A DNA stretch of 64,000 nucleotides from Xanthobacter sp. YC-JY1 (GTDB taxonomy: Bacteria; Pseudomonadota; Alphaproteobacteria; Rhizobiales; Xanthobacteraceae): positions 3,705,001 to 3,769,000 of the forward strand of contig NZ_CP032674.1 in NCBI RefSeq assembly GCF_021730305.1, read 5' to 3'. A model generated the notes under the pieces. The model saw only the letters and a program-made list of their open reading frames with translations, ran no database searches and had not been told where the DNA came from. Positions 39,946-62,241 of the stretch are shown in pieces (positions within the stretch are counted from its first letter, which is position 1; each line of letters opens with the position of its first letter). The translations under genes and the position numbers were made by a program.

Positions 39946-41222
39946 GGGCGATCGCTTTCGGAGAGGGAGATGGTGGAGCCGCCGCCATGGCTGTCGCCGG
40001 ACCGCACCTCGTGTGTGGCGGTCTGGATGCCGTGGGCCATCTGCTGGGAGCGCCGCATGCGCTGGGCCCACTCGGGAACATCACCGGAAGAAGCCGGCGT
40101 GCTTGATAAGGTGGCTGCGGCTCCGGAGACCGGCGGCGCGGCGGCTGAACCGCGCAATGGAGACGCTGCGGCAGTGGCTCCGGCGCGCGCGACACCACCA
40201 AGCCCACCCGCGACGCCGGACAGCCCGGATTGGCCGGCGGCTCCCGCGCTGTAGGCGGATGCAGCGCCTCCGGCGAGGCTCGCGCCAGCTCGTGCGGCCG
40301 CTGCCGTTCCAGAGAGCGCAGCACCGGCCCCCCGCACCGCGAGGCCAGCAGCACCCGCTCCCGCGAACGCTACGCCTCCTGCGGCGAGGCCGGTACCCAC
40401 GGCAGCACCCGCGCCCAGTTGTGGCGCACCGGTGATCAGGCCGGTGGCGATCCCCGGTCCGAAGATGCTGAGACCAAGCAGCGCCAGAGCCGCCAGCACG
40501 GCGGACAGGGCCTGGCTGATGGTCGGCTGGGCATCGCCATAGGAGGTGGTGAACTCAGAGAACAGCCCGGAGCCAATCCCGACGATGACGGCGAGGACCA
40601 TCACCTTCACACCGGAGGCGACGATGTTACCGAGCACCTTCTCGGCGAGGAAGGCGGTCTTGCCGAAGAAGGCGAAGGGGATAAGGACGAAGCCGGCGAG
40701 CGTCGTCAGCTTGAACTCTATGAGGGAGACGAAGAGCTGCACCGCCAGGATGAAGAAGGCGATCAGGATCAGGAGCCAGGAGATCAACAGCACGGCGATC
40801 TGCACGGCATTGACGAAGAGCGCCACGGGTCCAGTGAGCTGGCTCGCCGCATCGAGCAGCGGCTGGCCCGCGGTGAGCCCCACTTCCGCGAGGCGCCCGG
40901 GACGGAGGAACTCCGCCGTGCTGATGGTTGACCCGCCGGCCTTGAGGCCGAGCCCGGCGAAGCTCTCGAACACGATCTTCGCAAGCGCGTTGAAGTTGCC
41001 GATGATCCAGGCGAAGAAGCCGATGGCGAGGGTCTTCCTCACCAGCCGGCGCATCACGTCCTCGTCCGCGCCCCAGGCCCAGAACAGGCCGGCAAGGGTG
41101 ATGTCGAGTGCGATCAGGATGGAGGAGAGGCCCGTCACCTCGCCCTTGATCAGGCCGAAGCCGGAATCGATGTAGCTGGTGAAGGTGTTGAGGAAGGTGT
41201 CGATGACGCCCACGTCGTTCAT
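39942..41222 (-). CDS. trbL: Conjugal transfer protein TrbL
   Basis: The 426-residue VirB6-type inner-membrane protein has about six hydrophobic segments up to residue 270 and then a low-complexity Ala/Gly-rich tail. It begins MNDVGVIDTFLNTFTSYIDS, a typical TrbL start. The repeated AGAAGLAVRGAGAAL-type tail is commonly variable in this family. Its start overlaps the small trbK-like gene by 4 bases. Confidence 0.94.
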   Translation of the reverse strand: MNDVGVIDTFLNTFTSYIDSGFGLIKGEVTGLSSILIALDITLAGLFWAWGADEDVMRRLVRKTLAIGFFAWIIGNFNALAKIVFESFAGLGLKAGGSTISTAEFLRPGRLAEVGLTAGQPLLDAASQLTGPVALFVNAVQIAVLLISWLLILIAFFILAVQLFVSLIEFKLTTLAGFVLIPFAFFGKTAFLAEKVLGNIVASGVKVMVLAVIVGIGSGLFSEFTTSYGDAQPTISQALSAVLAALALLGLSIFGPGIATGLITGAPQLGAGAAVGTGLAAGGVAFAGAGAAGLAVRGAGAALSGTAAAARAGASLAGGAASAYSAGAAGQSGLSGVAGGLGGVARAGATAAASPLRGSAAAPPVSGAAATLSSTPASSGDVPEWAQRMRRSQQMAHGIQTATHEVRSGDSHGGGSTISLSESDRP

Positions 41223-41479
41223 GGCGTCGCTCCGTCCACGGGCTTGCCGAAGAAGCGGCGACGGTTCGCTTCCCAGAGGGCGGCGCAGCGCGGATCGACG
41301 GGATCGGCGGACTCCAGTCCAGCGCAGCTCTTGAGATCGGCCGAGGAGACGCTTCCTGCCGGCGCGCTTGGTGAGATGACCAGTTTCACCTGCTGGCCGG
41401 AGGCCATCGCCAGCGCGGCGATCACCGCGCCGACCAGGCCGGCGACAACAAGGGTTCTGAGTACGGTGCCCTGATCCAT
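41219..41479 (-). CDS. TrbK-like putative entry-exclusion protein
   Basis: The 86-residue protein has one membrane helix (LRTLVVAGLVGAVIAALAMA) and a short periplasmic part with two cysteines and a C-terminal ALWEANRRRFFGKPV motif. Its position between trbJ and trbL matches the TrbK-alt entry-exclusion proteins of this operon type. These limit transfer into cells already carrying the element. Confidence 0.83.
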   Translation of the reverse strand: MDQGTVLRTLVVAGLVGAVIAALAMASGQQVKLVISPSAPAGSVSSADLKSCAGLESADPVDPRCAALWEANRRRFFGKPVDGATP

Positions 41480-41488
41480 GGCAGCCCC

Positions 41489-42223
41489 TCAGTTCCCGCG
41501 GAACATGGTGACGGCGGAGGGCTGGTAGCTCGACGGGGTGGAGAAGCGCCGGTAGCGCTCCTGCCCCTCCGACACTGCGGTCGCCCGCTCGGCTTCGGAC
41601 AGCGCCTGCGCCCGGCCATTGGCGGCCACCACCGCGGTGAGGTCGGAGAGCTGCTGCGCCTGGAGCGCCTGGAGCTGGTTGCCCGCCTGCATGGCCTGGA
41701 GCGCACCGGTCGCCGCCTGGCTCTGCCCGACGAGCGTCGAGGCCTGCGAGCGGCCGGTGTCGAGATTGCCGACGACGCCCGCCTGCACCCGCAGCGCATC
41801 CTGGAGGCCGGCGACTGTGGTCTCCCAGCGGCTCCTGGCCTGGGCGACCAGGGCGGCATCCGAACTGCTCAGCGAGACCGAGCCGTACTGGCCTTGGAAC
41901 GCCCGATCGATGGCGGTGACGTCATAGGCGATCTTCTGGGCCTGCCCGAGCAGTTGCTGGGTCCGCTGGGTCGACTGCTGGAGCGCGCTGAGAGAGGAAT
42001 ATGGCAGGCTCGCGAGATTGCGGGCCTGGTTGATCAGCATCTGCGCTTCGTTCTGCAGCGAGGTGATCTGGTTGGTGACCTGCTGCAGGGCGCGTGCTGC
42101 CTGAAGGAGGTTCTGCGCATAGTTCGAGGGGTCGTAGACCACGTACTGCGCGGCGGCAGGCGCCAGCGGACAGACGAGGAACGGCGCGGCGAGGAGCGCC
42201 ACACGCAAAGAGCGGCGGATCAT
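41489..42223 (-). CDS. trbJ: Conjugal transfer protein TrbJ
   Basis: The 244-residue VirB5-type protein has a signal peptide (VALLAAPFLVCPLAPAAAQ) and a mostly helical, glutamine-rich body (NLLQAARALQQVTNQITSLQ, NEAQMLINQARNLASLP). It is a minor pilus or adhesin subunit. Its start overlaps the trbE stop by 4 bases. Confidence 0.94.
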   Translation of the reverse strand: MIRRSLRVALLAAPFLVCPLAPAAAQYVVYDPSNYAQNLLQAARALQQVTNQITSLQNEAQMLINQARNLASLPYSSLSALQQSTQRTQQLLGQAQKIAYDVTAIDRAFQGQYGSVSLSSSDAALVAQARSRWETTVAGLQDALRVQAGVVGNLDTGRSQASTLVGQSQAATGALQAMQAGNQLQALQAQQLSDLTAVVAANGRAQALSEAERATAVSEGQERYRRFSTPSSYQPSAVTMFRGN

Positions 42224-44649
42224 GAGCGTGTCTCCAGATTGTCGAGTTTAGGGATGAGGTCGGCGGCCCAGCCGAGGCCGCGATGGCGTAGCCAGGCGGC
42301 GAGGAAGCCGTCGCGCCCGTGCTCGGCGAGGATCTGCGAGAGCGCGGCCTGGTCGGTCTTGGACGCGGCGGCGCACAAAGCGAGCGCCACCTGCGAGAGC
42401 CCGAGCTCGAACAGGCGGTTGCCGCGCCGGGACTGGCAGTAATAGTCCCGCTTCGGCGTCGCCCGAGCGAGGATTTCAATCTGCCGGTCGTTGAGGCCGA
42501 AGCGTCGGTAGATGGCCGTGATCTGGGGCTCGACAGCCCGCTCGTTCGGGAGCAGTAGCCGCGTCTGGCAGCTCTCGATGATGGCGGGGGCAATGGCCGA
42601 GCCATCGATGTCGGACAGAGACTGGGTGGCGAACACCACGCTGGCGTTCTTCTTGCGCAGGGTCTTCAGCCATTCCCTGAGCTGGCCGGCGAAGCCCGGA
42701 TCATCGAGCGCCAGCCAGCCCTCGTCGATGATGAGGAGGGTGGGAGACCCGTCGAGGCGGTCCTCAATGCGGTGGAAGAGATAGGAGAGGACAGCCGGCG
42801 CGGCGCTGGTGCCGATCAGCCCCTCGGTCTCGAAGGCCTGGACGGACGCCTGCCCCAGATGCTCCGCCTCGGCATCGAGCAGGCGGCCATGGGCGCCGCC
42901 GATGCAATAGGGCCGCAGCGCCTGCTTCAGCGCATTGGACTGGAGCAGCACGGCAAGGCCGGTCAGTGTGCGCTCTTCAACGGGCGCTGAAGCGAGCGAC
43001 GAAAGCGCCGACCAGATATGCTCCTTCACCTCCGGGGTGATGGAGGCGCCTTCGCGGGCGAGGATCGACACGATCCAGTCGGCCGCCCACGTGCGCTCGG
43101 AAAGCTCATCGACGCGGGCCAGCGGCTGGAGCGCGATGCTCTCCTCAGCGAGACTTCCGCCCAGATCGTGCCAGTCGCCACCCATGGCGAGGGCCGCCGC
43201 TCGGATGCTGCCGCCAAAATCGAAGGCGAAGACCTGCGAGCCGGCATAGCGCCGGAACTGCAGGGCCATGAGCGCCAGCAGGACCGACTTGCCGGCGCCG
43301 GTCGGCCCCACCACCAGGGTGTGGCCCACATCCCCCACATGGAGCGAGAAGCGGAACGGGGTGGAGCCTTCGGTCTTGCCGTAGAACAAAGGCGGCGCCG
43401 CAAAATGCGCGTCCTGCTCGTCGCCGGCCCACACCGCCGACAGGGGGATCATGTGCGCGAGGTTGAGGGTGGAGACGGGCGGCTGGCGGACATTGGCATA
43501 GACATGCCCCGGCAGGCCGCCGAGCCAGGCGTCCACGGCGTTGATGGTCTCGACCATGGCCGTGAAGTCCCGGCCCTGGATCACCTTCTCCACCAGCCGG
43601 AGCTTCTCGTCGGCGATACGGGGATCACCATCCCAGACGGTTACCGTGGCGGTGACATATGCGATGCCGGCATGGTCGGCGCCGAGCTCCTGGAGGGCGA
43701 GATCGGCGTCCTCCGCCTTGTTGGCGGCATCGGAATCCACCAGCACCGAAGCTTCGTTGGTCATCACCTCCTTCAGGATGGCGGCGATGGACTTGCGCTT
43801 GGCGAACCACTGGCGGCGGATTTTCGTGAGCAGCCGGGTGGCGTCGGTCTTGTCGAGGAGGATGGCCCGGGTCGACCAGCGATAGGGGAAGGCGAGCCGG
43901 TTGAGGTCGTCGAGGATCCCAGGTGTCGTCGCCGTCGGGAAGCCGACGATGGTGAGGACACGCAAGTGCTCCGCGCCCAACATAGGCTCCAGCCCGCCGG
44001 TGAGCGGCTGGTCGGCGAGGAGCGCGTCGACATACATAGGCGTCTCGGGGATACGGACCCGCTGGCGCCGTGTCGAGACACAGCCGTGCAGATAGGTCAG
44101 GGTCTCGGCGTCATCGAGCCAACGGCACTCCGGCATGAAGGCTTCGACCAGCCGGAGCACCCGGTCTGTCCGATCCACGAAGGCACTCAGCGCTTCGCGT
44201 GGATCGACACTCTCGCGCCCACGCCCCTCATAGAGCCAGCTCTCCGCCCGTGCGGCATCCTCCGCCGGGGGCAGCCAACAGAAGGTGAGGAAATAGCTGG
44301 ATTCGAAATGGCTGCCGGCCTCGGCGAAGCCCGCCTTGCGCTCGGCCTCCACCAGCGCGGAGGCGGGATCGGGGAAGAGGCTCTCGGGATAGGCGCCCGC
44401 CTCGTGCCGCTGGGCTTCCACGAACAGTGCCCAGCCGGAGCCGAGACGACGGAAGGCACTGTTGAGGCGACCTGCCACCGCCCCCAGCTCAGCAGGCACC
44501 GCGGAATCGAGGTCCGGCCCGCGGAAGCGCGCCGTGCGCTGGAAGCTGCCGTCCTTGTTGATGACGATGCCCGGGCCAACGAGGGCCGCCCACGGCAAAT
44601 AGTCCGCGAGCCGGCTCCCGTGTCGACGATACTCGGCGAGGTTCATCAT
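42220..44649 (-). CDS. trbE: Conjugal transfer ATPase TrbE
   Basis: Starting at MMNLAEYRRHGSRLADYLPW (44649), the 809-residue VirB4-type ATPase has Walker A VVGPTGAGKSVLLALMALQF, Walker B TLLIIDEGWLALDDPGF and the motor segment VVFATQSLSDIDGSAIAPAI. An in-frame GTG four codons upstream overlaps the trbD stop and is an alternative start. It energises pilus assembly. It is full length and undamaged. Confidence 0.95.
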   Translation of the reverse strand: MMNLAEYRRHGSRLADYLPWAALVGPGIVINKDGSFQRTARFRGPDLDSAVPAELGAVAGRLNSAFRRLGSGWALFVEAQRHEAGAYPESLFPDPASALVEAERKAGFAEAGSHFESSYFLTFCWLPPAEDAARAESWLYEGRGRESVDPREALSAFVDRTDRVLRLVEAFMPECRWLDDAETLTYLHGCVSTRRQRVRIPETPMYVDALLADQPLTGGLEPMLGAEHLRVLTIVGFPTATTPGILDDLNRLAFPYRWSTRAILLDKTDATRLLTKIRRQWFAKRKSIAAILKEVMTNEASVLVDSDAANKAEDADLALQELGADHAGIAYVTATVTVWDGDPRIADEKLRLVEKVIQGRDFTAMVETINAVDAWLGGLPGHVYANVRQPPVSTLNLAHMIPLSAVWAGDEQDAHFAAPPLFYGKTEGSTPFRFSLHVGDVGHTLVVGPTGAGKSVLLALMALQFRRYAGSQVFAFDFGGSIRAAALAMGGDWHDLGGSLAEESIALQPLARVDELSERTWAADWIVSILAREGASITPEVKEHIWSALSSLASAPVEERTLTGLAVLLQSNALKQALRPYCIGGAHGRLLDAEAEHLGQASVQAFETEGLIGTSAAPAVLSYLFHRIEDRLDGSPTLLIIDEGWLALDDPGFAGQLREWLKTLRKKNASVVFATQSLSDIDGSAIAPAIIESCQTRLLLPNERAVEPQITAIYRRFGLNDRQIEILARATPKRDYYCQSRRGNRLFELGLSQVALALCAAASKTDQAALSQILAEHGRDGFLAAWLRHRGLGWAADLIPKLDNLETRS

Positions 44650-44661
44650 GGTGCGCCCCAC

Positions 44662-44934
44662 TCAGACCGACAGATGGGAGGGGATGCGCAGATGCCGGCG
44701 CACCACGTCGACGAAGAGCGGATCGCGCTTGGCGGCCCAGACGGCGGCGAGATGGCCGACGGCCCAAAGGGCGAGGCCGACGAGCCAGAGCCTCAGCCCC
44801 AGCCCGATGGCGCCGGCGAGGGTGCCGTTGAAGATCGCGATCGCCCGCGGCGCGCCGCCGAGCAGGATCGGCTCGCTGAGCGCCCGATGGACCGGGACGG
44901 AGAAGCCCGGCACCTCGCCGACATCGCCCGCCAT
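44662..44934 (-). CDS. trbD: Conjugal transfer protein TrbD
   Basis: The 90-residue VirB3-type protein begins MAGDVGEVPGFSVPVHRALS, then EPILLGGAPRAIAIFNGTLA. It has one or two hydrophobic segments (GLGLRLWLVGLALWAVGHLA). It overlaps trbC by one base and lies just before trbE, the fixed order of the operon. Confidence 0.94.
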   Translation of the reverse strand: MAGDVGEVPGFSVPVHRALSEPILLGGAPRAIAIFNGTLAGAIGLGLRLWLVGLALWAVGHLAAVWAAKRDPLFVDVVRRHLRIPSHLSV

Positions 44935-45266
44935 CAGACGAGCGCTCCGCCGCTGAAGGAGAAGAAGGACAGGAAGAAGCTGGAAGCGGCGAAGGCGATG
45001 GAGAGGCCGAACACGATCTGGATCAGCCGCCGGAACCCGCCCGAGGTGTCGCCGAAAGCCAGCGCGAGGCCGGTCGAGATGATGATGATCACCGCGATGA
45101 TCTTGGCGACCGGCCCCTGGATGGAGTCCAGGATCGACTGCAAGGGCGTCTCCCAGGGCATGGAAGAGCCGGAGGCGTGGGCAGCCGACACCGCGCAGGC
45201 GAAGGCGAGAGCTGCAGCGGCGGTTCGCAGCAAGCGGCGATGGCGGACAACGAGCATCGAGGTCAC
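44934..45266 (-). CDS. trbC: Conjugal transfer pilin TrbC
   Basis: The 110-residue VirB2-type prepilin has a long signal (LLRTAAAALAFACAVSAAHA) and two hydrophobic helices (AKIIAVIIIISTGLALAF and IVFGLSIAFAASSFFLSFFS). It forms the conjugative pilus, in the RP4 system after cyclisation. It overlaps trbB by 4 bases. Confidence 0.94.
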   Translation of the reverse strand: MTSMLVVRHRRLLRTAAAALAFACAVSAAHASGSSMPWETPLQSILDSIQGPVAKIIAVIIIISTGLALAFGDTSGGFRRLIQIVFGLSIAFAASSFFLSFFSFSGGALV

Positions 45267-46249
45267 GGGGAGGCTCCTTCTTCTGCAGGAGGGATAGCGG
45301 GAGAGACCCGGTAGTCGCCGTCGGGGCCGAGCCCTTCGACGCGGGCGAGCTCCGTGAGCCGGCGCGCCGCGCCTCGGCCGGACAGCACGGCGATGAGGTC
45401 GATGGTCTCGGCGATCAAAGCGCGCGGCACGGTGACCACGGCTTCCTGGATGAGCTGCTCCAGCCGTCGCAGGGTGCCTATGGCACTACCGGCGTGGATG
45501 GTGCCGATGCCGCCGGGGTGACCCGTCCCCCACGCCTTCAGGAGGTCCAGGGCCTCCGCGCCGCGCACCTCGCCGATGGGGATGCGGTCGGGTCTCAGAC
45601 GGAGCGACGAGCGCACGAGGTCGGAGAGCGAAGCGACGCCGTCCTTGGTGCGCATGGCCACCAGATTGGCCGCGGCGCACTGGAGCTCGCGCGTGTCCTC
45701 GATCAGGATGACCCGCTCGGAGGTCCTGGCCACCTCGGCGAGGAGGGCATTGGTGAGGGTGGTCTTGCCGGTGGAGGTGCCGCCGGCCACAAGGATGTTA
45801 GCACGGGAGACAACACCGTGACGGAGAGCCTCTGCCTGCGGCGCAGACATGATGCCGGCGGCCACATAATCGTCGAGCGTGAAGACCGCAACGGCGGGCT
45901 TGCGGATGGCGAAGGCCGGAGCTGCGACGACAGGCGGGAGCAGGCCTTCGAAGCGCTCACCGGTCCCAGGAAGCTCGGCGGAGAGCCGCGGGGCACCGGC
46001 ATGGACCTCGGCGCCGATATGGTGCGCGACGAGGCGGATGATGCGCTCGCCGTCACCGGGGGCCAGTCGCTCACCGGTGGCGCCGAGCCCGTTGGACAGG
46101 CGGTCGACCCAGAGGCATCCGTCCGGGTTGAGCATGACCTCGACGACGGCTGGGTCATCGAGAAGGCGGGAGATCACCGGGCCGAGCGCAGTACGCAGCA
46201 TGCGCACGCCGCGCATCAGGCCTTCTAAACTGTGATCTGAACCCGCCAT
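45263..46249 (-). CDS. trbB: Conjugal transfer ATPase TrbB
   Basis: The 328-residue VirB11-type hexameric ATPase has Walker [19 protein letters not shown], an Asp box [20 protein letters not shown], Walker [21 protein letters not shown], and the His box [14 protein letters not shown]. It is the first gene of the trb operon. A traG coupling-protein gene normally precedes it, but here about 350 bp of non-coding DNA and defence genes lie upstream. Confidence 0.95.
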
Positions 46250-47997: not shown

Positions 47998-49626
47998 ATG
48001 ACGACTCTCTCGAGCCTAGTCGATCCTGCCCTCGCCAACGACGCCGGCGGCGTCGCGGGGCGAATTGGCTACGACTTCCAGGCTCATGTGGCCGCTGGCT
48101 TCGTCTTGGACATGATTGCCGATCCAGAGCTTTTGCAGGTCGAGTGCGAAACAGCCGACGACGTTACCCTGCGCTGGGAACGGGGCGGTCGGCAGGAGAT
48201 CGAATACGTCCAGGTCAAGACAACGGATGGCAATTCGAAGTGGGGCATCCAGGAACTGACGGCGCGCGACAAATCGAAGTTCGGGAGTTCCCTCATGGAG
48301 AAGTCCTTGGCTTGCGACGCCTTTCCCGGCAATCCCTTGTTTCGTTTTGTTAGCACTCGCGACGTTCGCGGCGAGCTTGTGCTCTTCAAGGCCCGCCGGC
48401 CAAGTCGCCCCAACCCTGATCCCCGCTTCGCCAAGCTCGTCGGGAGCTTCGGGGCCAAGCATAAGACCTACAAATCGCCCCAGGGACGAACGACTGCCGA
48501 CTGGGCGGCAAGCATGCTCTGGGACGTCGAAGGAAATGAGAAGGCGCTCGAGGCAAAGAACGTCCTTAAGCTGCTCAGGCTCGCCGAGGACTCTGGCGAA
48601 CGGCCATCGTCGCAGCTTGCCGAGGAAGCCTACGATGATCTTCTCAAGCGCGTCACCGCCGCAAGCAAAGCATCCCGCGTGACCGAGCCTCAGGCCAAGT
48701 CAATTCCGCGCCGCGATGCCTGGACGTGGTGGAGGTCGTGGCTTTCGAAGATGGGCACCGCGGGTCAGCGCTCGCTAAAGGTCTACAACGCCACGCCTGA
48801 CGAGTTCTTCGTCAAGATCGTCGATGTCGATGAGGCCCACCTCAAACGCTCGTGCCAGGCGTTCGACGCGGAGTTCGATGGAGGGGCTTGGCGCCGGGAC
48901 GAGCTCGCCGCCTACCTTGTGGACTGGCTTCCAGACATTACCTTGCCGCCGAAGGTACTGGCATCCTTCAGTCATAACGAAGCGCGCGCCCTTACAAAGC
49001 GCGCTCTCGATGCTTTCAAGGCGAGCGGAAGCTTTGCCATTGGCCGGCTCCTTGCTGAGCTAATGCTAAATGCCATCCTTCGGCACTACCGCAGGAGCGA
49101 GCCGATTTCATGTAAGCTATTCACCAAGAGCGCCGGCGTCGTGCACTCCAACAGCGCGCATATCGTGCACGCAGCCGATACTGACGAGATTTGGCTCGGT
49201 CAAGCCCGCCTCGCCGCCACGACGAGCCACGAAGGCATCGTGTCGGAAGTCATCAGCCAGATCGAGGAGACGTTCGAGCGCGATGTCCTGAAGCGCGAGC
49301 GAGAAGTCATCGTCCAGCTCAGAGACCCAAACCACCTTAAGGCGACAAACATTGAGCGTTCGTTCTCCAAAAACGCCAAGCTCGACGATTTTTTGCGGGT
49401 ACTTCGAGTACCAATACTGATCGCCTACGACAGCGGGGTGATCAGCGCTGGCGGGCAGCCGGGTTACGTGACCGAGCTCATCGCTGAAGTTACCGTCTCC
49501 TACGAGCGGATCAAACGGCAACTGCCCAACAAGCTGCGCGACGTCCAGGTCCATGTATTCCTCGTCCCAGTGGAATGTGCGGTCTCGCTGGCGAACAGCT
49601 TCGAAAGCCACCTCAATGGAAAATAG
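47998..49626 (+). CDS. hamA: Hachiman HamA with N-terminal DUF4297-like nuclease domain
   Basis: The 542-residue protein has two parts. Residues 18-110 (AGRIGYDFQAHVAAGFVLDM, VECETADD, IEYVQVKTTDGNSKWG) look like a DUF4297 PD-(D/E)xK-type DNA endonuclease with the Q-V-K active-site strand. The C-terminal third (DEIWLGQARLAATTSHEGIV, LRVLRVPILIAYDS) matches DUF1837, the HamA domain. Hachiman senses phage DNA intermediates with a helicase and releases HamA nuclease activity. The stop overlaps the hamB start by 11 nt. The canonical short HamA lacks the DUF4297 extension, so this is a fused or longer variant. Confidence 0.82.
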   Translation: MTTLSSLVDPALANDAGGVAGRIGYDFQAHVAAGFVLDMIADPELLQVECETADDVTLRWERGGRQEIEYVQVKTTDGNSKWGIQELTARDKSKFGSSLMEKSLACDAFPGNPLFRFVSTRDVRGELVLFKARRPSRPNPDPRFAKLVGSFGAKHKTYKSPQGRTTADWAASMLWDVEGNEKALEAKNVLKLLRLAEDSGERPSSQLAEEAYDDLLKRVTAASKASRVTEPQAKSIPRRDAWTWWRSWLSKMGTAGQRSLKVYNATPDEFFVKIVDVDEAHLKRSCQAFDAEFDGGAWRRDELAAYLVDWLPDITLPPKVLASFSHNEARALTKRALDAFKASGSFAIGRLLAELMLNAILRHYRRSEPISCKLFTKSAGVVHSNSAHIVHAADTDEIWLGQARLAATTSHEGIVSEVISQIEETFERDVLKREREVIVQLRDPNHLKATNIERSFSKNAKLDDFLRVLRVPILIAYDSGVISAGGQPGYVTELIAEVTVSYERIKRQLPNKLRDVQVHVFLVPVECAVSLANSFESHLNGK

Positions 49627-51781
49627 CCAATCCATACAAGCGCTCCGCGCCGCACTCGCGGCCCCGGAAGCGGTCGCGTCGGATCCGTTCGGCCTGCTTC
49701 AGGCGATTTCGACCCTTGTGAATAATCATCCAAGCCATAGCATTGGGCGCGAGATGGTCATTCGGGCCCTGTCGGTCCAGGACCTGTTTCCAGAGGACCA
49801 CAAGATCATCCTCCAGTCGATGGTCAAGTCGGTAGGCCTCATTCCTTACCTTGACCGGGAACTTCGCGGCTTCGACCTACAAGATCGCATGCTTATCGAG
49901 GCGCACCGCCCACCCATCGACGAGCCTGGCCTGCTCTTTCACACTCTGCAACTCCAGATATATCGCGACCTGTTGGCTGGACGTAACGTCGTCCTGAGCG
50001 CGTCGACAAGCGTCGGCAAGAGCTTGGTCGTCGACGCGGTGATTGCCTCTGGCAAGCACCACCACATGGTAATCGTCGTCCCGACGATCGCCCTGATCGA
50101 CGAGACGCGACGTCGCTTGTCCAAGCGTTTCGGCGCGACCTACGATGTTGTTACCCACCCAACCCAGGCATCGGACGTAACGCGTCCGACGATCTTCGTC
50201 CTTACCCAGGAACGTGCGTTGGCGCGTCAGGATTTGGGCGAGGTAACGTTCTTCGTTATCGATGAGTTCTACAAGCTCGACCTTCGACGCGACAGTACGG
50301 ATCGGACGATCGACCTGAACCTTTGTTTCAACAAGCTCGCAAGGTCCGGAGCACAGTTCTATCTCATTGGCCCAAACATCGATGCCGTTACGGGACTAGG
50401 CGAGTCATACGAGTACACGTTCATTCCATCGCGTTTCTCGACCGTGGCCTTGGATATCGTCGTTTACGGCCTCCCGCGCGATGACGAAGTGCGATGCGAG
50501 AAACTCATTGAGATCCTTCCGCGACTCGAGACGCCAACGCTTGTCTATTGCCAATCACCTGCGAAAGCCGCGCTCGTCGCCGAGGCCCTCATCGACAGCA
50601 AGCTGTTTCCCGAAAACTTCGCCACCGCGGACGTCGTCGACTGGTTAGTGCGCGAATATCCGGAGCAATGGATTTTCATCCGGGCTCTTCGCTGCGGCAT
50701 CGGCGTCCATCACGGCAACATCCCGAGGGCCTTGCAGCAATATGTGGTGCGCGCTTTCGAGCAGGGGCACATCAAGACAATTGTTTGCACCTCGACGATT
50801 ATCGAGGGTGTAAATACCGTCGCCGAGAACGTCATCGTCTACGACAAGCGCATCGGCGGGCCCAACCTAGATAGCTTCACGTTCAAGAATATCGCGGGCC
50901 GTGCCGGGCGAATGACCAAATACTTCATCGGAAAGGTCTTCGTGCTAGAAGCGCCGCCGGCGGACGACCCATCCTACAGTGTCGAAGTTGGGATACAGCA
51001 TCAGGACGAGAAGACCCCGTTCCCGTTGATTTTGGACCTGCCAGAGGAAGATCTAATGATCGTCTCGAAACAGCGCATCGAAGACGTCCGCTTCGAAAGC
51101 CCTATCTCTCTGGCGACAATACGGCTCAACCGCCACATCCCGGTCGAAGACCAATACGCCGTCCACCGGGTCATTTCGCGAGACCTAGTATTGCTACAAG
51201 ATTCGCTCGCCTGGAAAGGTTCTCCGGAGCCGCATCAGCTCTTGGCCGTCTGTAACATCATCTACGATCAGATTGACCGTGGCCGCTCGTTGGGGGGATA
51301 CGGGGTCATGAGCGGCGTGGGCTTGAAGGCAGAACTTGATCGGCTTCGGATGGCGAAGTCGTTTCGGGAGGTGCTAGATCACTGGGTTGTCCGGAAGCGC
51401 TTCGAGGAGTCTATTAGCGACGCAGTCGAGCGCGGTCTACGCTTCATGCGGCGATACGTGAGTTTTACGTTTCCCCGTCAGCTGATGGCCGTCAGTCACA
51501 TCCAAGCCGAAATCTATGATCGTGAAGGGGTCGCTAAGGTTGGCGACTATAGCTTCTTCGCCACAAGTGCGGAGAGCCTATTCATGGAGTCCGGGCTCTT
51601 TGCCTTGGACGAGTACGGCGTGCCACCGGAACTGGCTCGTCGGTTAGGCAAGGGCGCTGGCGAGATTCGCACGCTCAACGCAGGGCTTGGGTTGGTCGCG
51701 AAAGTGGACCTGCAGGCTAAGAATCTCCATCCGTTCGAGCGCGAAATTCTCGCGGACGTCTTGGCTTCGCTTGGCCGCTAA
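49616..51781 (+). CDS. hamB: Hachiman HamB superfamily 2 helicase
   Basis: The 721-residue helicase starts at ATG 49616, inside the end of hamA. It shows Walker A SASTSVGKSLVVDAVI (about residue 130), motif II VIDEFYKLDL in place of the common DExH, motif IV-V segments (GVHHGNIPRALQQYVVRAFE and VCTSTIIEGVNTVAENVIVY) and motif VI IAGRAGRMTKYFIG. This is the Ski2-like pattern of HamB. It should hold HamA inactive until it engages aberrant DNA. Confidence 0.85.
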   Translation: MENSQSIQALRAALAAPEAVASDPFGLLQAISTLVNNHPSHSIGREMVIRALSVQDLFPEDHKIILQSMVKSVGLIPYLDRELRGFDLQDRMLIEAHRPPIDEPGLLFHTLQLQIYRDLLAGRNVVLSASTSVGKSLVVDAVIASGKHHHMVIVVPTIALIDETRRRLSKRFGATYDVVTHPTQASDVTRPTIFVLTQERALARQDLGEVTFFVIDEFYKLDLRRDSTDRTIDLNLCFNKLARSGAQFYLIGPNIDAVTGLGESYEYTFIPSRFSTVALDIVVYGLPRDDEVRCEKLIEILPRLETPTLVYCQSPAKAALVAEALIDSKLFPENFATADVVDWLVREYPEQWIFIRALRCGIGVHHGNIPRALQQYVVRAFEQGHIKTIVCTSTIIEGVNTVAENVIVYDKRIGGPNLDSFTFKNIAGRAGRMTKYFIGKVFVLEAPPADDPSYSVEVGIQHQDEKTPFPLILDLPEEDLMIVSKQRIEDVRFESPISLATIRLNRHIPVEDQYAVHRVISRDLVLLQDSLAWKGSPEPHQLLAVCNIIYDQIDRGRSLGGYGVMSGVGLKAELDRLRMAKSFREVLDHWVVRKRFEESISDAVERGLRFMRRYVSFTFPRQLMAVSHIQAEIYDREGVAKVGDYSFFATSAESLFMESGLFALDEYGVPPELARRLGKGAGEIRTLNAGLGLVAKVDLQAKNLHPFEREILADVLASLGR

Positions 51782-51904: not shown

Positions 51905-52188
51905 ATGGCTGGTCGCCGCGACATTATCGCCGAGTTGCGGGCGCGGGACTTCATCGCCGCCGGGACCTGCAGCCCGCAGCCAGCCGCATCCTATTCCTAT
52001 GTCACGACGAGGGCGTTCCTCGCCCATTTCGGCTTTGACACCCTCCGCGACCTGCCGGACATGATGGCGTTGGAGGAAGTGGGGCTGCTGGCGGGGGCGT
52101 CTTGTCCTTCGAGCTTGCGATCGAAGCGGAGGCGGGTGACGCTACGTTTGACTTCGCCGATGATCCGGCTGAAACGAATGAGGTCTGA
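51905..52188 (+). pseudogene. scpB C-terminal fragment
   Basis: AGRRDIIAELRARDFIAAGT, then YSYVTTRAFLAHFGFDTLRD and LPDMMALEEVGLL, match the second winged-helix domain of ScpB, the condensin accessory subunit. At about 52095 the frame shifts, and an acidic tail (GDATFDFADDPAETNEV) ends at 52188. The first two thirds of scpB are absent, so this is a stray fragment carried between two defence modules. Confidence 0.68.
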
Positions 52189-52202
52189 AACGGAAGCAGC
52201 CA

Positions 52203-52358
52203 ATGGCCACCGCCAAAAATACCATCTGTCTCTGGTTTGATAATGATCTTGAGGTGGGAGCCCGACTTTATGCCGAGATGTTTCCGGACAGCTCCATCAG
52301 TGCCATTCAGCATGTGTCCTTTGCCCGCCCACCCGGCAAAGCCGGAGCGCGCCGATAG
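52203..52358 (+). pseudogene. PhnB-like VOC protein, N-terminal fragment
   Basis: MATAKNTICLWFDNDLEVGA, then RLYAEMFPDSSISAIQHV, is the beginning of a PhnB/3-demethylubiquinone-type vicinal-oxygen-chelate protein. It ends in a stop after 51 codons, where the family normally has about 140-160. The truncation just before the Gabija genes marks another insertion or deletion edge. Confidence 0.62.
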
Positions 52359-52478: not shown

Positions 52479-54209
52479 ATGCGCATCGTCCTTCTAGAGA
52501 TAAAGAATTTCCGTGGCATTAAATGCCTCATTTGGTCCCCATCGCCAGGCATGAATTGCCTAATCGGCCCTGGAGATTCCACTAAAACGACGATCCTCGA
52601 TGCGATTGAGCTTTGCCTCAACCCGCGTTCCTACATTCTCGCAGACGATTGTGATTTCTTTGATCTCAAGGTCGAGGAGCCAATCCGGATCACTGTCACG
52701 CTGGCGGGTCTTCCATCCCACTTTAAGGCCGAGGACCGATACGGCCTGCATCTTCGCGGCTGGAACCAGTCGGAGGGCAAGGTCGTAGACGAGCCGGGAG
52801 CAGGGCTGGAAGAGGCTTTGTCTATCTCAGTCGTTATCGATCGGTCGCTCGAGGCGCGATGGTCCATCCACAATAATCGCATCGAGGCCTCGGAAGCTGA
52901 TCCGCCGACTGTTCGGTTCAAGGACGCCAAGCAGATGGCTACTAATCGCCTTGGGCCGTTTGCCGAACGACATCTCGGCTGGGGCCGAGCCTCGGTGCTC
53001 ACGCGGATTGGAGAAGCCGGCGAAGGTTACAGCCTTCAACTCGCGGAGGCCGGCCGCGCCGCCCGCAGCGCATTTAAAGCTGGCGACCAAGGCGTATTCA
53101 AGAAGGCCGTCGACCGGGCCGAAGAGCTGAGCAAAATCTTAGCCGTACCCATCCGCGGCAAGTTTACGGCTGAACTCGACGTCCAAGGCGTCAGCATCAC
53201 CTCAGGCGGCATCTCCCTTCACGGCGGCGACCTCCCGCTGCGCAGACTTGGAACAGGCTCTGCCCGCCTTCTTGTCTCAGCACTCCAGCATGACGCCGGA
53301 CCGCCACACGTCGCCATCATCGATGAGATTGAGCACGGCCTGGAGCCGCATCGTATCGCTCGCCTCATCAAATATCTGAAGGTTCCAAAGGCTGGCGCAG
53401 GCGCTGCCCTGCCACAGATTTTTGCTACCACCCACTCACCGGTTGTGGTCCGGGAGCTGATGGCCGCGGATATCTTCGCCGTCCGCTCCAAGGCCGGCAT
53501 CACGACCGTCGCATCCGTCTCGGCAACTGCGAAGGATCCCGAGACCGCCCAGCGTCATTTGCGCGGAACGCCGGAGGCATTTCTGTCCCGCAAGGTGATT
53601 GTCGGCGAAGGCAGAACCGAGCAAGGGTTGGCGCGAGGCCTCGATGACTGGTGGCAGGCGTCGGGAAGGGATTCCTTCGCGCTTCAAGGCGTCGTCGCCA
53701 TCGATGGCGGCGGTAAGGACAAGGCGCCGCTGATCGCCGAGCATCTTCGCGATCTCGGATATGAGGTCTGGCTGCTCCTCGATTCCGACGAGCCTCCGAA
53801 CGAGGTAGCCCTGAAACGGGCGACCGCGAAAGGCGCGGTCGTCCATCAATGGCCAGGCGGTTACTCCACTGAGGAGCGGCTGTTTCTCGATCTCCCGTGG
53901 TCCGCGGTTCGATCCATGATCATGCTCGCCGTCGAGTTTCTCGGCCAAGATAGCGTCATGGCCGTAATGGATAATGCCCTTGCCAAGGCCAGCCTCCCCA
54001 CGGCCACTGCTGCGAAATTAGGTGAGGATCGGGACACGGAAGGTGTCCGGCGCGTGCTTGGTAAGGTCGCGAAGGACAAAAGCTGGTTCAAGGACATCAC
54101 GCGCGGCGAACGGCTGGCCGAGATCATCGGCCCTTGTCTCCACACCATCTCAGAGAAGGCTACTGCAACCGGTTTCGACGCCATGCGGAGATGGGTCGAT
54201 GGCCAATGA
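52479..54209 (+). CDS. gajA: Gabija GajA, OLD-family ATPase with TOPRIM nuclease domain
   Basis: The 576-residue protein has the usual GajA length. An N-terminal ABC-like ATPase starts MRIVLLEIKNFRGIKCLIWS. Its Walker A reads IGPGDSTKTTILDAIELCL, with Thr in place of the usual Gly before Lys, and its Walker B VAIIDEIEHGLEPHRIARLI and FATTHSPVVVREL follow. The C-terminal TOPRIM domain carries the catalytic Glu in KVIVGEGRTEQGLARGL and the Asp pair in VWLLLDSDEPPN. GajA cuts DNA when nucleotide pools fall during infection. The gajB start lies inside its last codons. Confidence 0.85.
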   Translation: MRIVLLEIKNFRGIKCLIWSPSPGMNCLIGPGDSTKTTILDAIELCLNPRSYILADDCDFFDLKVEEPIRITVTLAGLPSHFKAEDRYGLHLRGWNQSEGKVVDEPGAGLEEALSISVVIDRSLEARWSIHNNRIEASEADPPTVRFKDAKQMATNRLGPFAERHLGWGRASVLTRIGEAGEGYSLQLAEAGRAARSAFKAGDQGVFKKAVDRAEELSKILAVPIRGKFTAELDVQGVSITSGGISLHGGDLPLRRLGTGSARLLVSALQHDAGPPHVAIIDEIEHGLEPHRIARLIKYLKVPKAGAGAALPQIFATTHSPVVVRELMAADIFAVRSKAGITTVASVSATAKDPETAQRHLRGTPEAFLSRKVIVGEGRTEQGLARGLDDWWQASGRDSFALQGVVAIDGGGKDKAPLIAEHLRDLGYEVWLLLDSDEPPNEVALKRATAKGAVVHQWPGGYSTEERLFLDLPWSAVRSMIMLAVEFLGQDSVMAVMDNALAKASLPTATAAKLGEDRDTEGVRRVLGKVAKDKSWFKDITRGERLAEIIGPCLHTISEKATATGFDAMRRWVDGQ

Positions 54210-55662
54210 CGAGAAAATCGCACGACTTGCCGCGTCCGTTCGTCGGGGCAGTATCGTGGCTGCTGCGGGCTGCGGCAAGACAGAGCAGATCGCACGCGCC
54301 GTTGGCATCTCGACGCAAAGACGGCTGATCCTGACCCATACACATGCGGGTGTCGATGCGCTGACCCGCCGTCTGAAGAAGCTCCGCATTTCTGCCGACA
54401 AGTACCGTATCGACACGATCGCAGGGTGGTGCCTGCGGTTCGCAGCGGCTTTTCCGCGGCGCTCCGGCATCGTCGCGACCGTTCCGACTACGCCAGCCGA
54501 CTGGGACGCCATCTATCTCGCCGGCGCAAGGCTCCTCGACAGCGGTGCTGTCGACGGCGTGCTGCTCGTCTCCTATGGCGGATGCTTTGTCGACGAGTAC
54601 CAGGATTGCACCCTCCAACAGCACCAGGTGATCAGCCGCCTCGCCAATCTCCTTCCCACCTGCGTCTTCGGCGATCCGCTACAGGCGATATTCGATTTCA
54701 GAGACCAGCACCCCGTCGACTGGGACAGCGACGTCTTCCCGACGTTCGTCCGGTCGGCCGAGCTCTCAACGCCGTGGCGTTGGAAGAATGCTAGAAACGG
54801 GGAATTGGCGGACTGGCTCGGCGATGTTCGCGTCGCCCTTGAGCAAAACAAGCCGATCGACCTGACGTCCCGACCCCGATGCGTCGCATGGACTGAGCTT
54901 CCAGTCGATGCTTCCCGCCACCAGGCCACTATCGTCGGTCAATGTCTCGAGGCCATGAGCGAAAACGACCTGGGCAATCTGGTCGTCATCGGCGACAGCA
55001 CCAGCGAGAATCGACGATCGGCCTTGGCACAGAAACTTGCCAAGCAAGGCTTCGCAAATATCGAGGCTATCGGCTGTAAGACCCTGCATTCCGCAGCGAG
55101 GGCAATCGACAAGGCGAAGGGTTTGGGCCGTCTCAAGGCGCTGTTGGATTTCGCGTCGAAGTGTATGACGGGCGCCGACAAGGCCGCACTCGAGAAGGCG
55201 ATCGATGCGCGGCAACAAGGCCGCCGCTTGGGTCAAGCCAAATTCGGCAACCTTCTCCCCCTGGCGGATGCAGTTATCGAAGATGGCGGCGACCTAGCGA
55301 TGCTTGCACTTCTCCAGGCCATGCGCGACCGGCCCGGCGTCTACCTCTATCGGCGTGAAATGTTTTTCGCCATGAGATCGGCGTTACAGATCAAGGCGGT
55401 CAACGGGCTTCCCACTCTCAGCACGTCTATCTGGGAGGTCCAGAATCGGATCCGTCACTCCGGCCGACACCTGGGCGAGCGGAGCATCGGCAGCACGCTT
55501 CTCGTCAAAGGCCTGGAGTTCGATCGCGCGATTGTTGTGGCGACCAACACCATGACCGGCAAAGACTGGTACGTTGCGCTCACAAGAGCGACAATGAGGC
55601 TCCGCATCATCTCGATGGACGAGCACCTCTCTCTGGCTAGAACATCGACCGCAATCTCATAA
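54199..55662 (+). CDS. gajB: Gabija GajB, UvrD-like helicase
   Basis: Starting at MANDEKIARLAASVRRGSIV (54199) the product has 487 residues. It has Walker A VAAAGCGKTEQIARAVG, motif Ia LTHTHAGVDALTRRLKK, motif II CFVDEYQDCTLQQHQVI, motif III FGDPLQAIFDF and the C-terminal WYVALTRATMRLRII segment of superfamily 1 UvrD helicases. Size and the partner ATPase-TOPRIM gene identify the Gabija pair. The 11-nt overlap with gajA suggests translational coupling. Confidence 0.85.
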   Translation: MANDEKIARLAASVRRGSIVAAAGCGKTEQIARAVGISTQRRLILTHTHAGVDALTRRLKKLRISADKYRIDTIAGWCLRFAAAFPRRSGIVATVPTTPADWDAIYLAGARLLDSGAVDGVLLVSYGGCFVDEYQDCTLQQHQVISRLANLLPTCVFGDPLQAIFDFRDQHPVDWDSDVFPTFVRSAELSTPWRWKNARNGELADWLGDVRVALEQNKPIDLTSRPRCVAWTELPVDASRHQATIVGQCLEAMSENDLGNLVVIGDSTSENRRSALAQKLAKQGFANIEAIGCKTLHSAARAIDKAKGLGRLKALLDFASKCMTGADKAALEKAIDARQQGRRLGQAKFGNLLPLADAVIEDGGDLAMLALLQAMRDRPGVYLYRREMFFAMRSALQIKAVNGLPTLSTSIWEVQNRIRHSGRHLGERSIGSTLLVKGLEFDRAIVVATNTMTGKDWYVALTRATMRLRIISMDEHLSLARTSTAIS

Positions 55663-56822: not shown

Positions 56823-58688
56823 TCAGCGGCGGGATTTTTTCGCAGGAAGATAGCCGGCGCACTTGTCGCGAGTGGCATCGTCGATGGTGAAATCGGCGGG
56901 CGACCGCCCGCCGAGCTCTGGGCGTGAACACCGCATCCATAGGTCAGCACACGCAGGGTCGATGTAGCGGTTGCGAGCGAGGGCCTCAAGCTCTCGGACG
57001 GCTTTTTGCTTGCGCTCGCGGGCTTGCTCTTCGATCCTGAGCTGGTCCGCTTTTCGTCCGAGAGCATGGATTACGTCGCGAAGCCCAGTTTCGCTCCGCG
57101 CGGACTCCAGGGGAGACTGGCCGTTCAGAGCGGCATCGCCGGTGCTCAGCCAGATTTCATGACCTTCACCTAGGTCCGCCGCCGCGAGCGTCCTGAGCCG
57201 GACCACCCGTGCTTCGGTATCGGCTTTCTCCTTCTCCCGTTTCTCCCGTTCTCTGTCTTCGGCCTCAAGGCGCTTCCTCTGCAGCGCGCGCGCAAGCTCC
57301 CCCTCACATGGGAGGCCAAGAAGCTCCAAGTCGGCACGAGGCGAAAAGCGGATCCGGGTGCGGATGTTGGACAGTTGATGGCAAAGCGCCGTCCATTCAG
57401 GATCGCTGCCGTGGATTGCGTCAACGACGGACTGTCCACGGCCCGATAGTTCGGCCAGGATCCATGCCTCGAACGAAAATTCGCGCGTTTCCTTGTCAGG
57501 CAGGCCAAGAAGCTGCTCTGACACGATGCCCCGAATTTCGGCCAGGCGTTTCCCAGGGCGCGCCCGCAACGCCTCCGCCTCGTGAATCCTCTGCCGCAAC
57601 AGACTGGACGCCTGCCAAATCTCTGAGGGCGCGGAGTGGACAAACCCGAGCCTCTCCAGTCGGCGAAGATAGCTCTCAACGGATTTTGCGGGAGAGGCGA
57701 ATGGCAAGCCCGCATCCTTTAGGGCTTTGGCAATGTCCTCGGAGACCGAGCGGAAGCGCGGGTCGATCCAGCTCCGCCTGACCAGGGCGGCGACGGCCGT
57801 TCGCGTTCTGAAGGGTTGGGATTTCGATTGCAGCAAGTCGAGGACAATTGCACCTTGCCACTCGGCGAGCGGGACCGTGAAACATCCGCTTCCGTCGACG
57901 GGGAGGTTGATCAGAGCATCCAAGCCGTCCTGTCGCAGGATAGCCTCGCATTCCCCACTACCCCCTTCGCGAGCCGGAAGGCGGTGCCGATAATTTCGAC
58001 GGTGCTCGTCGATGGACTTTTGCCGATCTTCGGCACGTTGGCGCGCCCTCTCCGACAAGCGGTCCCGGGCAGCGGGCTCGTGCGGATTGTGAAGCCAGAT
58101 CCTGGGAGCGTTGTAGAGGATGTCGTCGGCTAGCTCATCCAATGCTCGATCCCGGTAGGCGGACAGGTCGATCTCGATCGCCCCGACATTCATGGTCCGG
58201 ATTCGCGCGATTTTCACGTCATCGCAGGGGTGGGTGACTTTGAATTCAACGATGAGACGCCGATCCCGCAGCACCAGAACGACGTCCGGCACAATCGATC
58301 CATCCTTGGTTTCAAGAATGGCCTCGTCAAATGCGAGTCTCGTTGCCCGCACCACAACTTCGGTATCGTCTTGATGCGCAATGAGTAGCTCGGGAAGCGC
58401 AATCTCCAGTCGCTCGTCGAGGACCTGCTTCGCGAACTTGTGGAGGGCTGTTTCGCCCGCGGACGTACATGAAGCGCCGTAGCGATCAAAGTGATGCGCG
58501 AAGTGGTGTGCTTGCAGATCCCCCTGCTTTGCAACCATTCGCCGGTCGCAGCCGGGGCATCGGCATTGGCAGGCGAGTCCCGACGGCACTTCGTCGATAT
58601 GTCGAAGTGAACCGTCAGCGGCTTCCGCAACAAGAACACCGCCTTGCTCCGTACAATCGAAGAGCTGACCAAGCCGTATGCGTGCCAT
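56823..58688 (-). CDS. CoiA-like nuclease with ParS/MbcA-like C-terminal motifs
   Basis: From MARIRLGQLFDCTEQGGVLV the protein has 621 residues. Residues 35-75 contain the four-cysteine zinc-like segment CQCRCPGCDRRMVAKQGDLQ followed by AHHFAHH, as in competence protein CoiA. A PD-(D/E)xK nuclease strand follows (IVPDVVLVLRDRRLIVEFKV). A charged coiled region precedes two C-terminal segments, EIWLSTGDAALNGQSPLESA (about 511-530) and ADLWMRCSRPELGGRSPADF (about 571-590). Both resemble the toxin-binding motif of ParS/MbcA-type proteins. I know no named system with this architecture. It lies between two HEPN-like genes. Confidence 0.65.
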   Translation of the reverse strand: MARIRLGQLFDCTEQGGVLVAEAADGSLRHIDEVPSGLACQCRCPGCDRRMVAKQGDLQAHHFAHHFDRYGASCTSAGETALHKFAKQVLDERLEIALPELLIAHQDDTEVVVRATRLAFDEAILETKDGSIVPDVVLVLRDRRLIVEFKVTHPCDDVKIARIRTMNVGAIEIDLSAYRDRALDELADDILYNAPRIWLHNPHEPAARDRLSERARQRAEDRQKSIDEHRRNYRHRLPAREGGSGECEAILRQDGLDALINLPVDGSGCFTVPLAEWQGAIVLDLLQSKSQPFRTRTAVAALVRRSWIDPRFRSVSEDIAKALKDAGLPFASPAKSVESYLRRLERLGFVHSAPSEIWQASSLLRQRIHEAEALRARPGKRLAEIRGIVSEQLLGLPDKETREFSFEAWILAELSGRGQSVVDAIHGSDPEWTALCHQLSNIRTRIRFSPRADLELLGLPCEGELARALQRKRLEAEDREREKREKEKADTEARVVRLRTLAAADLGEGHEIWLSTGDAALNGQSPLESARSETGLRDVIHALGRKADQLRIEEQARERKQKAVRELEALARNRYIDPACADLWMRCSRPELGGRSPADFTIDDATRDKCAGYLPAKKSRR

Positions 58689-59033
58689 GCGTCCACCATT
58701 CGCTCGCGACAAGGCGCTGGAATGAGCCATGAACCGATTCGGTACGGGCTGCGAATTTCGGCTCCATCATGCCTAACGGCCGGCGTGGGTGGCGATCTCG
58801 AGCGTACTCAGCGGCTCGAAACCAACCTCAGCCATTCCCCAGGACTTCACCCCCGCGGCAACGCCGACTTTTTCAACAGAACCCGCCAAGAGCAGAAATT
58901 GGACCGTCATCGGATAGCTGACGTTCGACTTCGCGCCCCATAGTAGTCATTTTGGCAGTGGACTGGCGATCCCGAATCCTGCCATTTGTTCAGCATATTG
59001 ATAAGCGCAGCAATTGAGTGGATCTGAGCTGCA
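58689..59033. other. Intergenic DNA holding a stray IS end
   Basis: No gene is recognised. A 20-bp sequence at 58858-58877 is repeated at 60084-60103 and looks like the terminal repeat of an IS1182-type element. The rest has no clear feature other than the promoter region expected before the nuclease gene at 58688. Confidence 0.45.
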
Positions 59034-60663: not shown

Positions 60664-62241
60664 TCAGTCTCGCCGCTTCCAGGCGTCGTCCCAGGTGTCG
60701 AGCGACATGGGGAAGCTCGCCCCTGGCGGCCGCTCGGCTTCCCGCCGTCGCTCCTCAGCATGGATCGCTAGCGTGAGGTAGATGATCGCGGCCCGAGCGA
60801 GCTTGAGTTGGCGGCCGGTGCGGGCGGCGAGGTCTTCGAAGGAGAGGTCGAAGATGCCGGGCGCTGTCTCGGGGGACGGTGCGATCGAGACAGCTCGTAG
60901 AAACATATCGTGGACGCTGACGAATTTGTGCTCCAGGTGGTTGCGTAGCTCGTAGATCGCTTGGGCGTCGGGCTCGGTGACGTCCTTGAAGTCGTTCTCG
61001 AACACGTCTTTCGACAGCCAGAAGAGCCCGCGGAGCGGCCAGTTGGCGAGCCCGTCGAGGTTGGGGTGGAGGGCCTTGCCCCTACCCTTCACAAACCAGA
61101 GGTTCCGGAAGCTGACCTGCCGCTCCGGATGGCCGAGACCCAGGTAGGTGTTGAGGCAGAAGGCAACCTTGTCGAAGATCGAATATGCGCCGCGGAACGC
61201 CATCTTCAGACGCTCGACCGCGAAGCCGACGGCCGGATAGTCTAGGGTGTCGTAGACCTGCACGCCACGGTCGGCGAAGTGGACGCCGCTGGCGGTTAGA
61301 CCTTCCCAGCAAGCAAAACGGGCAGCCGCGTACTCCTGCTTGATCAGGTTGAAGTAGGCAATGACCGGCGGCGGACCGGGGCCGCCGTCCAAGCCGACGA
61401 CCGTGATGGAAGGCAGCATCATCACGTCGCGCGCCGCGATCTCGAATGTGCCGGCGTCATTCAGCGGGTTGATGAAGAGCCGGCGGGCGAGACACCAGCG
61501 GCGATATTCGCGTTCGCGGCGTCCTCGGCCTAGGGAATGGCCGTGAAGGTCCACTTCGACGGGGTTGGCGGTCAGGTACGCGTCGAGTGCCTGGGCGTGT
61601 TTCGCGAAGTAGTCCAGGGCGGGTTCGAGCCCATAGCTCTCGATGATGGCATTGGGGTCGATCGCACGGCGGAAAGCCTGGTGCGCGGCGGCAGCAAGGA
61701 CATAGTTGTGGCCGGGGTCATGCAGGCCGGCGGCATAGTGGGAAAGGCCGATGCCGCGATTGCCGTTGGCCATGGCCATGTTCGGGACCAGGGCGAGCGC
61801 TCGGTCCCAGACCTCGATGGCTTCGACGAACCGGCCGATGTGGTTGAGGATGTTGCCCAGATTGATAAGCGCCTGGGCGCGCTGGATCAAACCGAGACCT
61901 TCGAAGCCCTCGCTCGCCACCGCGCGCCGGAGCGCCAGCAGCTCCTGGTCGATCTCGTTCGAGTGCCAGGTCCAAGTCTGGTGGGTCAGCGACTGATGCC
62001 GTCGAATGCTCCAGAGGTTGGCGGTGAAATAGTGCCAGCGTGCACGATGGGTCGGGTCGAGGTCACGCACCTCTAAACTCGTTAGCACGGCCTCCGCTCG
62101 GTCCAAGCCTACGGCGCTCGCGGCTTCGGCACTGAGGTCCACCAACAGGGCGGCCAAGGTCATCGCATCGTTGTCGGACAGGCCCGTCGGGTCGATGGTC
62201 ATTAGCCTGGTGAGATCGGGGCTGTTCTCGAAGTCCGCCAT
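60664..62241 (-). CDS. TPR-like protein with LA2681-like HEPN domain
   Basis: The 525-residue protein has helical TPR-like repeats in the first 250 residues (LIQRAQALINLGNILNHIGR, FVEAIEVWDRALALVPNMAM). The C-terminal domain reads YSIFDKVAFCLNTYLGLGHP, FRNLWF and YELRNHLEHKFVSVHDMFLR. The R-N-x3-H motif (Arg 433) and the preceding IFDK and FRNLW segments match LA2681-like HEPN domains, candidate ribonucleases of defence or stress systems. It is divergent from the gene at 62296 with 54 bp between them, so the two may be co-controlled. Confidence 0.75.
   Translation of the reverse strand: MADFENSPDLTRLMTIDPTGLSDNDAMTLAALLVDLSAEAASAVGLDRAEAVLTSLEVRDLDPTHRARWHYFTANLWSIRRHQSLTHQTWTWHSNEIDQELLALRRAVASEGFEGLGLIQRAQALINLGNILNHIGRFVEAIEVWDRALALVPNMAMANGNRGIGLSHYAAGLHDPGHNYVLAAAAHQAFRRAIDPNAIIESYGLEPALDYFAKHAQALDAYLTANPVEVDLHGHSLGRGRREREYRRWCLARRLFINPLNDAGTFEIAARDVMMLPSITVVGLDGGPGPPPVIAYFNLIKQEYAAARFACWEGLTASGVHFADRGVQVYDTLDYPAVGFAVERLKMAFRGAYSIFDKVAFCLNTYLGLGHPERQVSFRNLWFVKGRGKALHPNLDGLANWPLRGLFWLSKDVFENDFKDVTEPDAQAIYELRNHLEHKFVSVHDMFLRAVSIAPSPETAPGIFDLSFEDLAARTGRQLKLARAAIIYLTLAIHAEERRREAERPPGASFPMSLDTWDDAWKRRD

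Follow-up and report, generated by a model that had tools for sequence, protein, structure and literature searches.

The Gabija system of Bacillus cereus VD045 is represented by the structures 8sm3, 8jqb, 8x5i and 8u7i, and two papers name residues E379, E383, D432 and D434 of GajA, together with D511, D513 and K541, as those of the active site. Cleavage by B. cereus GajA is reported to be inhibited by NTPs, an inhibition by ATP that the Walker A mutation K35A leaves unchanged and that H320A partly relieves (PMC8136825). In the GajAB complex, GajA H320A gives no relief of ATP inhibition and GajB D162A/E163A gives partial relief, and both mutations abolish defence (PMC10822852). For the PA14 Gabija, a 2025 preprint argues for DNA ends as the trigger, against nucleotide depletion, and finds the conserved GajA ATPase residues to be necessary, mutations of the ATP site abolishing defence (PMC12407980). 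Defence by the retron Eco8 OLD is abolished by ATP-site mutations (PMC12887533), and K35A in the OLD protein YbjD is described as keeping the anti-phage phenotype with higher cytotoxicity (PMC13261556). The loss of defence upon mutation in B. cereus, PA14 and Eco8 thus indicates that the ATP site matters. Class 1 OLD is presented as a single gene with no helicase partner (PMC10568477), unlike the pair described below.

The locus lies in a window of 64,000 nucleotides (C1:3705001-3769000), the whole stretch of DNA analysed, from a 5.39 Mb single-contig genome. Two adjacent genes form the Gabija pair:

52479-54209, + strand: gajA, 576 aa, OLD-family ABC ATPase with TOPRIM nuclease
54199-55662, + strand: gajB, 487 aa, UvrD-like SF1 helicase

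The end of gajA and the start of gajB overlap by 11 bases; the ATG at 54199 is the likely GajB start, the mechanical GTG at 54022 falling within gajA. Both genes fit PADLOC models across nearly their full length, which excludes a chance match: GajA matches PDLC04168 (GajA) at E 1.3e-198 over residues 1-574, with 659 bits, and GajB matches PDLC04173 (GajB) at E 2.6e-160 over residues 12-478. The Pfam domains above cut-off are AAA_21, AAA_15 and OLD-like_TOPRIM in GajA and UvrD-helicase in GajB (E 1.6e-11). The features that mark membership are present, namely an N-terminal ABC-type ATPase and C-terminal TOPRIM in GajA (class 2 OLD) and, encoded next to it, a helicase of the UvrD/Rep type, GajB, that bears Walker A and DEXQD. 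A frame slip was considered and rejected, both frames being open and relatives covering both protein lengths. The Gabija identity proposed in an earlier note on this DNA is borne out by the agreement of the PADLOC models of both genes, Pfam and motifs, and, judged from sequence, the window pair is an intact Gabija of the known PDLC04168/PDLC04173 subfamily that is probably functional. It has the same overlapping gene order and the same ABC, TOPRIM and UvrD motifs as that subfamily, and differs just by sequence divergence and one P-loop residue, nothing else having been found. The GajA model matches proteins with Gly and with Thr at this residue alike, and several Gly proteins outscore that of the window (up to 797 vs 659 bits). 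The best reading of the locus is that of an ordinary Gabija, whose Walker A variant has in all likelihood become fixed in its lineage. By analogy, GajA and GajB would be expected to assemble as a GajAB complex that would cut foreign DNA through the TOPRIM domain, and nucleotide-binding sites in both proteins would control the cleavage; this mechanism is drawn from the Gabija of B. cereus and P. aeruginosa, and the observations on the window pair itself are of intact genes, conservation and selection. Gabija is further marked by a 4:4 complex of GajA and GajB and by an anti-phage activity for which both genes are required.

B. cereus GajA is very distant in sequence from that of the window, such that a profile is needed to join them: a single-sequence phmmer search with the window GajA against solved structures listed no GajA at E 0.1, and a 41-row profile reaches the B. 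cereus protein at E 2.6e-18. For GajB, phmmer alone reaches a solved GajB (E 0.0057). The AlphaFold model of GajA (pLDDT 78.9, pTM 0.78, 13 sequences) has a mean pLDDT of 80 at residues 31-40 and values below 50 at residues 165-169, 191-197, 228-255 and 304-308. Over residues 1-576 it can be aligned end to end with solved B. cereus VD045 GajA (8u7i_A, Z 16.9, 418 residues, 5.0 A; 8sm3_A, Z 16.5, 406 residues, 4.3 A). Its top structural match is the class 1 OLD nuclease of Thermus scotoductus (6p74, Z 19.3, 400 residues, 5.2 A), and the heads of SMC, condensin and RecN, which match the ATPase domain alone, score equal to or above the GajA chains (Z 17-18.6). Foldseek likewise places 6p74 first, followed by the retron Eco8 OLD and GajA (8u7i_A, E 6.2e-12), with TM-scores to GajA below 0.55. 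The GajB model (pLDDT 80.1, pTM 0.67) has its best fold matches in Rep and UvrD (E 4.5e-14 and up), the GajB chains 8iud and 8sm3_B standing at ranks 32 and 34 with E of about 1e-8.

The surroundings of the pair in the window comprise mobile-element genes, another defence system and gene remnants:

18799-20157, + strand: tyrosine integrase, upstream of Hachiman
36972-46249, - strand: Trb-type conjugation genes (TrbI, CagX/VirB9-like, TrbE/VirB4-like and VirB11-like; four tested), upstream of Hachiman
47998-49626 and 49553-51781, + strand: Hachiman pair, upstream of Gabija; best PADLOC matches HamA2 (E 7.2e-197) and HamB2 (E 2.9e-242)
51905-52240, + strand: end of a ScpB-like gene (remnant; PF04079, E 2.2e-06, just over cut-off)
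52203-52355, + strand: start of a 3-demethylubiquinone methyltransferase-like gene (remnant; PF06983, E 2.5e-07)
56823-58730, - strand: protein of 635 aa; N-terminus CoiA-like, but weakly so and below the Pfam cut-off; Xre/MbcA/ParS C-terminal match near the end (PF09722, E 2e-09)
60664-62241, - strand: TPR protein with LA2681-like HEPN domain (PF18733, E 4e-65), a candidate defence gene

The presence of two gene remnants between Hachiman and Gabija suggests repeated insertion at this place, and the conjugation genes together with the integrase raise the possibility that an integrative conjugative element carries the defence genes; the window contains no tRNA gene that the search could find. 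In the HamA of the window, a Cap4-type nuclease domain (PF14130, E 1.1e-22) at the N-terminus precedes the HamA domain (PF08878, E 1.3e-31). As a linked partner of Gabija, Hachiman was searched for in the flanks fetched with the relatives (E <= 1e-10), where no HamA was found and the sole HamB matches, those of L006 and L008, stood at 27%; these flanks span about 6 kb at most loci of one search, 8 kb at L020 and at most 2.5 kb at most others, and a more distant Hachiman escapes such a search.

Relatives of GajA are common on plasmids, with 318 records (tblastn, E 1e-5), 294 of them at 80% query cover or more and 314 below 60% identity. Two of the plasmid loci carry transposase genes, an IS630 gene between gajA and gajB in L111 and an IS3 gene directly 3' of a short gajB in L115. 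At E 1e-5 the phage collection has no match to either GajA or GajB; in viral contigs, single-protein scans found none and a profile scan brought up 8 loci. Searches for the family at E 0.001 returned 231/397, 221/385 and 322/398 genomes, yet they also matched 11/14 control genomes, so that these figures are no count of Gabija. Stricter protein searches matched 25/376 genomes in the family of the window genome (E 1e-20), 5/321 in the class of G1115 (E 1e-40, query L085) and 1/11 in the order of G671.

The residues and motifs on which the comparison with other Gabija proteins turns are the following:

52566-52589, + strand: GajA Walker A / P-loop, residues 30-37, GPGDSTKT, aligned to B. cereus GMNDIGKT
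52581-52583, + strand: Thr35 codon ACT, where a Gly usually precedes the Walker A lysine
53322-53327, + strand: GajA Walker B D282 and E283 (68/68 rows)
53433-53435, + strand: GajA switch His319, aligned with H320 of B. cereus GajA (68/68 rows)
53607-53789, + strand: GajA stretch with the TOPRIM acidic residues E377, E381, D435 and D437, from the B. cereus alignment
54268-54282, + strand: GajB Walker A, residues 24-28, GCGKT, invariant in an 11-row alignment
54592-54606, + strand: GajB Walker B, residues 132-136, DEYQD, likewise invariant in those 11 rows

B. cereus GajA and that of the window thus align at the four acidic TOPRIM positions, at the Walker A lysine and at the switch His. The two proteins differ at Walker B, which is Glu-Glu in B. 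cereus and Asp-Glu in the window, and in the P-loop, where the profile alignment sets T35 against the Gly at position 34 of B. cereus and K36 against K35. The non-canonical Walker A pointed out in the earlier note, with Thr for the Gly before lysine (G30-PGDS-T35-K36-T37), therefore holds as a sequence fact, at the exact coordinates. The motif GxxxxGK[ST], which describes P-loops in general and is no defining mark of Gabija, does not fit the window GajA, owing to Thr35, nor 19 more of the 68 rows compared. The note had also listed all TOPRIM residues as present; this stands for E377, E381, D435 and D437, which align to B. cereus E379, E383, D432 and D434, the profile alignment ending near residue 440, short of D511, D513 and K541, in whose region an invariant K538 lies. 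The GajB helicase motifs, which the note had likewise listed, are seen (AGCGKT, DEYQD, GDPLQ, KGLE and VALTRA). In the GajA model, helix 1 is predicted to begin at residue 34, which would place Thr35 within the first helix turn, a geometry left unproven by a model of such confidence.

The substitution recurs in the relatives. Thr is found in 9/9 distinct full-length GajA proteins of the window branch (the window, L001, L002, L003, L004, L005, L006, L020 and L132), the eight others being 71-81% identical to the window protein. Their hosts include Rhizobium, Bradyrhizobium, Phyllobacterium, a Hyphomicrobium bin, an alphaproteobacterial bin and another member of the window genome's family. A sequencing or assembly error, a reading with practically no chance of being right, is refuted by the same Thr in eight further distinct full-length proteins of other records, and a mutation specific to the window is ruled out by its presence in relatives. 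All four Thr codons (ACT, ACA, ACC and ACG) are in use within the branch, an indication that the residue itself is selected for. Since close relatives share it, Thr appears as a normal branch trait and signals neither damage nor a new mechanism. Phyllobacterium zundukense carries the pair on a plasmid (L020), where the P-loop has a second change, Arg for Gly32 (GPRDSTKT), and an annotated Shedu nuclease gene adjoins the Gabija pair.

Across 68 distinct full-length GajA proteins, a set drawn around the family of the window GajA and no population sample, position 35 is G in 48, T in 14, C in 4, S in 1 and F in 1. The set is what remains of 71 such rows after removal of the low-scoring L044, L047 and L088 (all Gly); outside the counts are fragments and split copies, among which the partial L009 and L148 show Thr and the partial L032, L051, L112, L126, L147 and L149 show Gly, and also L007, L087 and L125, whose P-loop the counts do not cover. 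At each of the 68 loci the fetched sequence contains a GajB-like match at some point (blastp, E <= 1e-5), and farther OLD rows with no GajB match, L041 and L019 among them, retain Gly. The near relatives L134-L137 have Gly as well, so that Thr is a trait of the branch and not general in Gabija. As to whether Thr is common among functional GajA proteins, the point on which the earlier note had made its reading depend, this is so within the branch (9/9) and not in Gabija at large, where Gly prevails (48/68). Thr35 is, by sequence comparison, a lineage-fixed natural variant, and position 35 in this part of GajA admits Gly, Thr, Cys, Ser or Phe, the other ATP-site residues inspected being kept in the alignment. 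No mention of the Thr-for-Gly substitution was found in the literature searched, which leaves most subscription papers outside, and no claim is made of its absence from print.

An early tree of 43 rows had a supported non-Gly clade of 16 rows (97/90; T 12, C 3, S 1) and, next to it, a clade of 20 rows with G in 19 and C in 1. In a quick tree of all 68 rows, L134-L137, all four with Gly, adjoin the Thr branch, and Gly and non-Gly states must interchange four times, which loosens the case for Gly having been lost once; one common origin for Thr/Ser was not rejected (AU test on 49 rows, 13 of them Thr/Ser; p-AU 0.434). This history bears on an alternative that is possible but on balance doubtful, namely that Thr retunes the GajA ATP site, through weaker affinity or binding without hydrolysis, such that the protein would respond to other nucleotide levels or control would shift to GajB or DNA ends. 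Consistent with it, 19 of the 20 rows that lack Gly have T, S or C, small residues with a hydroxyl or thiol group, and H277, K372, R467 and W474 are shared by 14/14 rows in the two main Thr/Ser branches, against 0/48 Gly rows; an ATP-site mutation also changes another OLD, as seen in the higher cytotoxicity of YbjD K35A (PMC13261556). However, these four residues were chosen after the fact, by scanning for columns that go with Thr, and with a p-AU of 0.434 their linkage may be merely shared descent. The Thr row L123 has none of the four, and among the Cys rows L106 and L053 carry two each and L107 and L023 none. The B. cereus K35A protein, moreover, is reported with ATP inhibition unaltered (PMC8136825).

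Selection and conservation bear upon a further alternative, which is very improbable: a degenerate ATP site that has lost nucleotide binding, leaving the nuclease constitutive, controlled by GajB, or inactive. The loss of the Walker A Gly, joined in L020 by the second P-loop change, would accord with decay, yet G258, G260, D282, E283, H319 and K36 are conserved in 68/68 rows, as are G30, D33, E285, E377, E381 and D435; position 37 is S or T in 68/68, and position 437 is D in 60 and E in 8. In close pairs gajA is under purifying selection (dN 0.036 and dS 0.325 for L003-L004; dN 0.009 and dS 0.126 for L001-L002) and the genes are kept, whereas decay would be expected of a dead site. In comparisons with the window, dN is 0.126-0.205 for gajA and 0.182-0.267 for gajB, with dS near or past saturation. 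A GajA with Thr35 thus most likely still binds nucleotide, and the preferred reading remains an ordinary Gabija with a lineage-fixed Walker A variant.

Among other P-loop families, MCM and MoxR proteins have Ala at the same place; Ras-type proteins lose nucleotide when this Gly is changed, a point against the ordinary reading. Going by the published mutants, a change of one P-loop residue need not alter sensing. The suggestion of the earlier note that Thr could alter nucleotide sensing, which it took as the key trigger of Gabija, is not supported, in view of the constancy of Thr in the branch, the lack of effect of K35A on ATP inhibition (PMC8136825) and the dispute over depletion as the trigger (PMC12407980). 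On present evidence, altered sensing through Thr35 is unlikely to be the main point of the locus. A bolder proposal, distinctly improbable as it stands, is that a branch of Gabija swapped the Walker A Gly for a small hydroxyl or thiol residue, fixed together with H277, K372, R467 and W474, and that its GajA would hold nucleotide without normal hydrolysis, activation being set by GajB or DNA ends instead of the ATP site of GajA.

Should the Thr prove neutral, the locus simply adds another Gabija pair. Should it affect hydrolysis or affinity, the branch would provide a natural test of the disputed trigger, setting the GajA ATP site against GajB and DNA ends.
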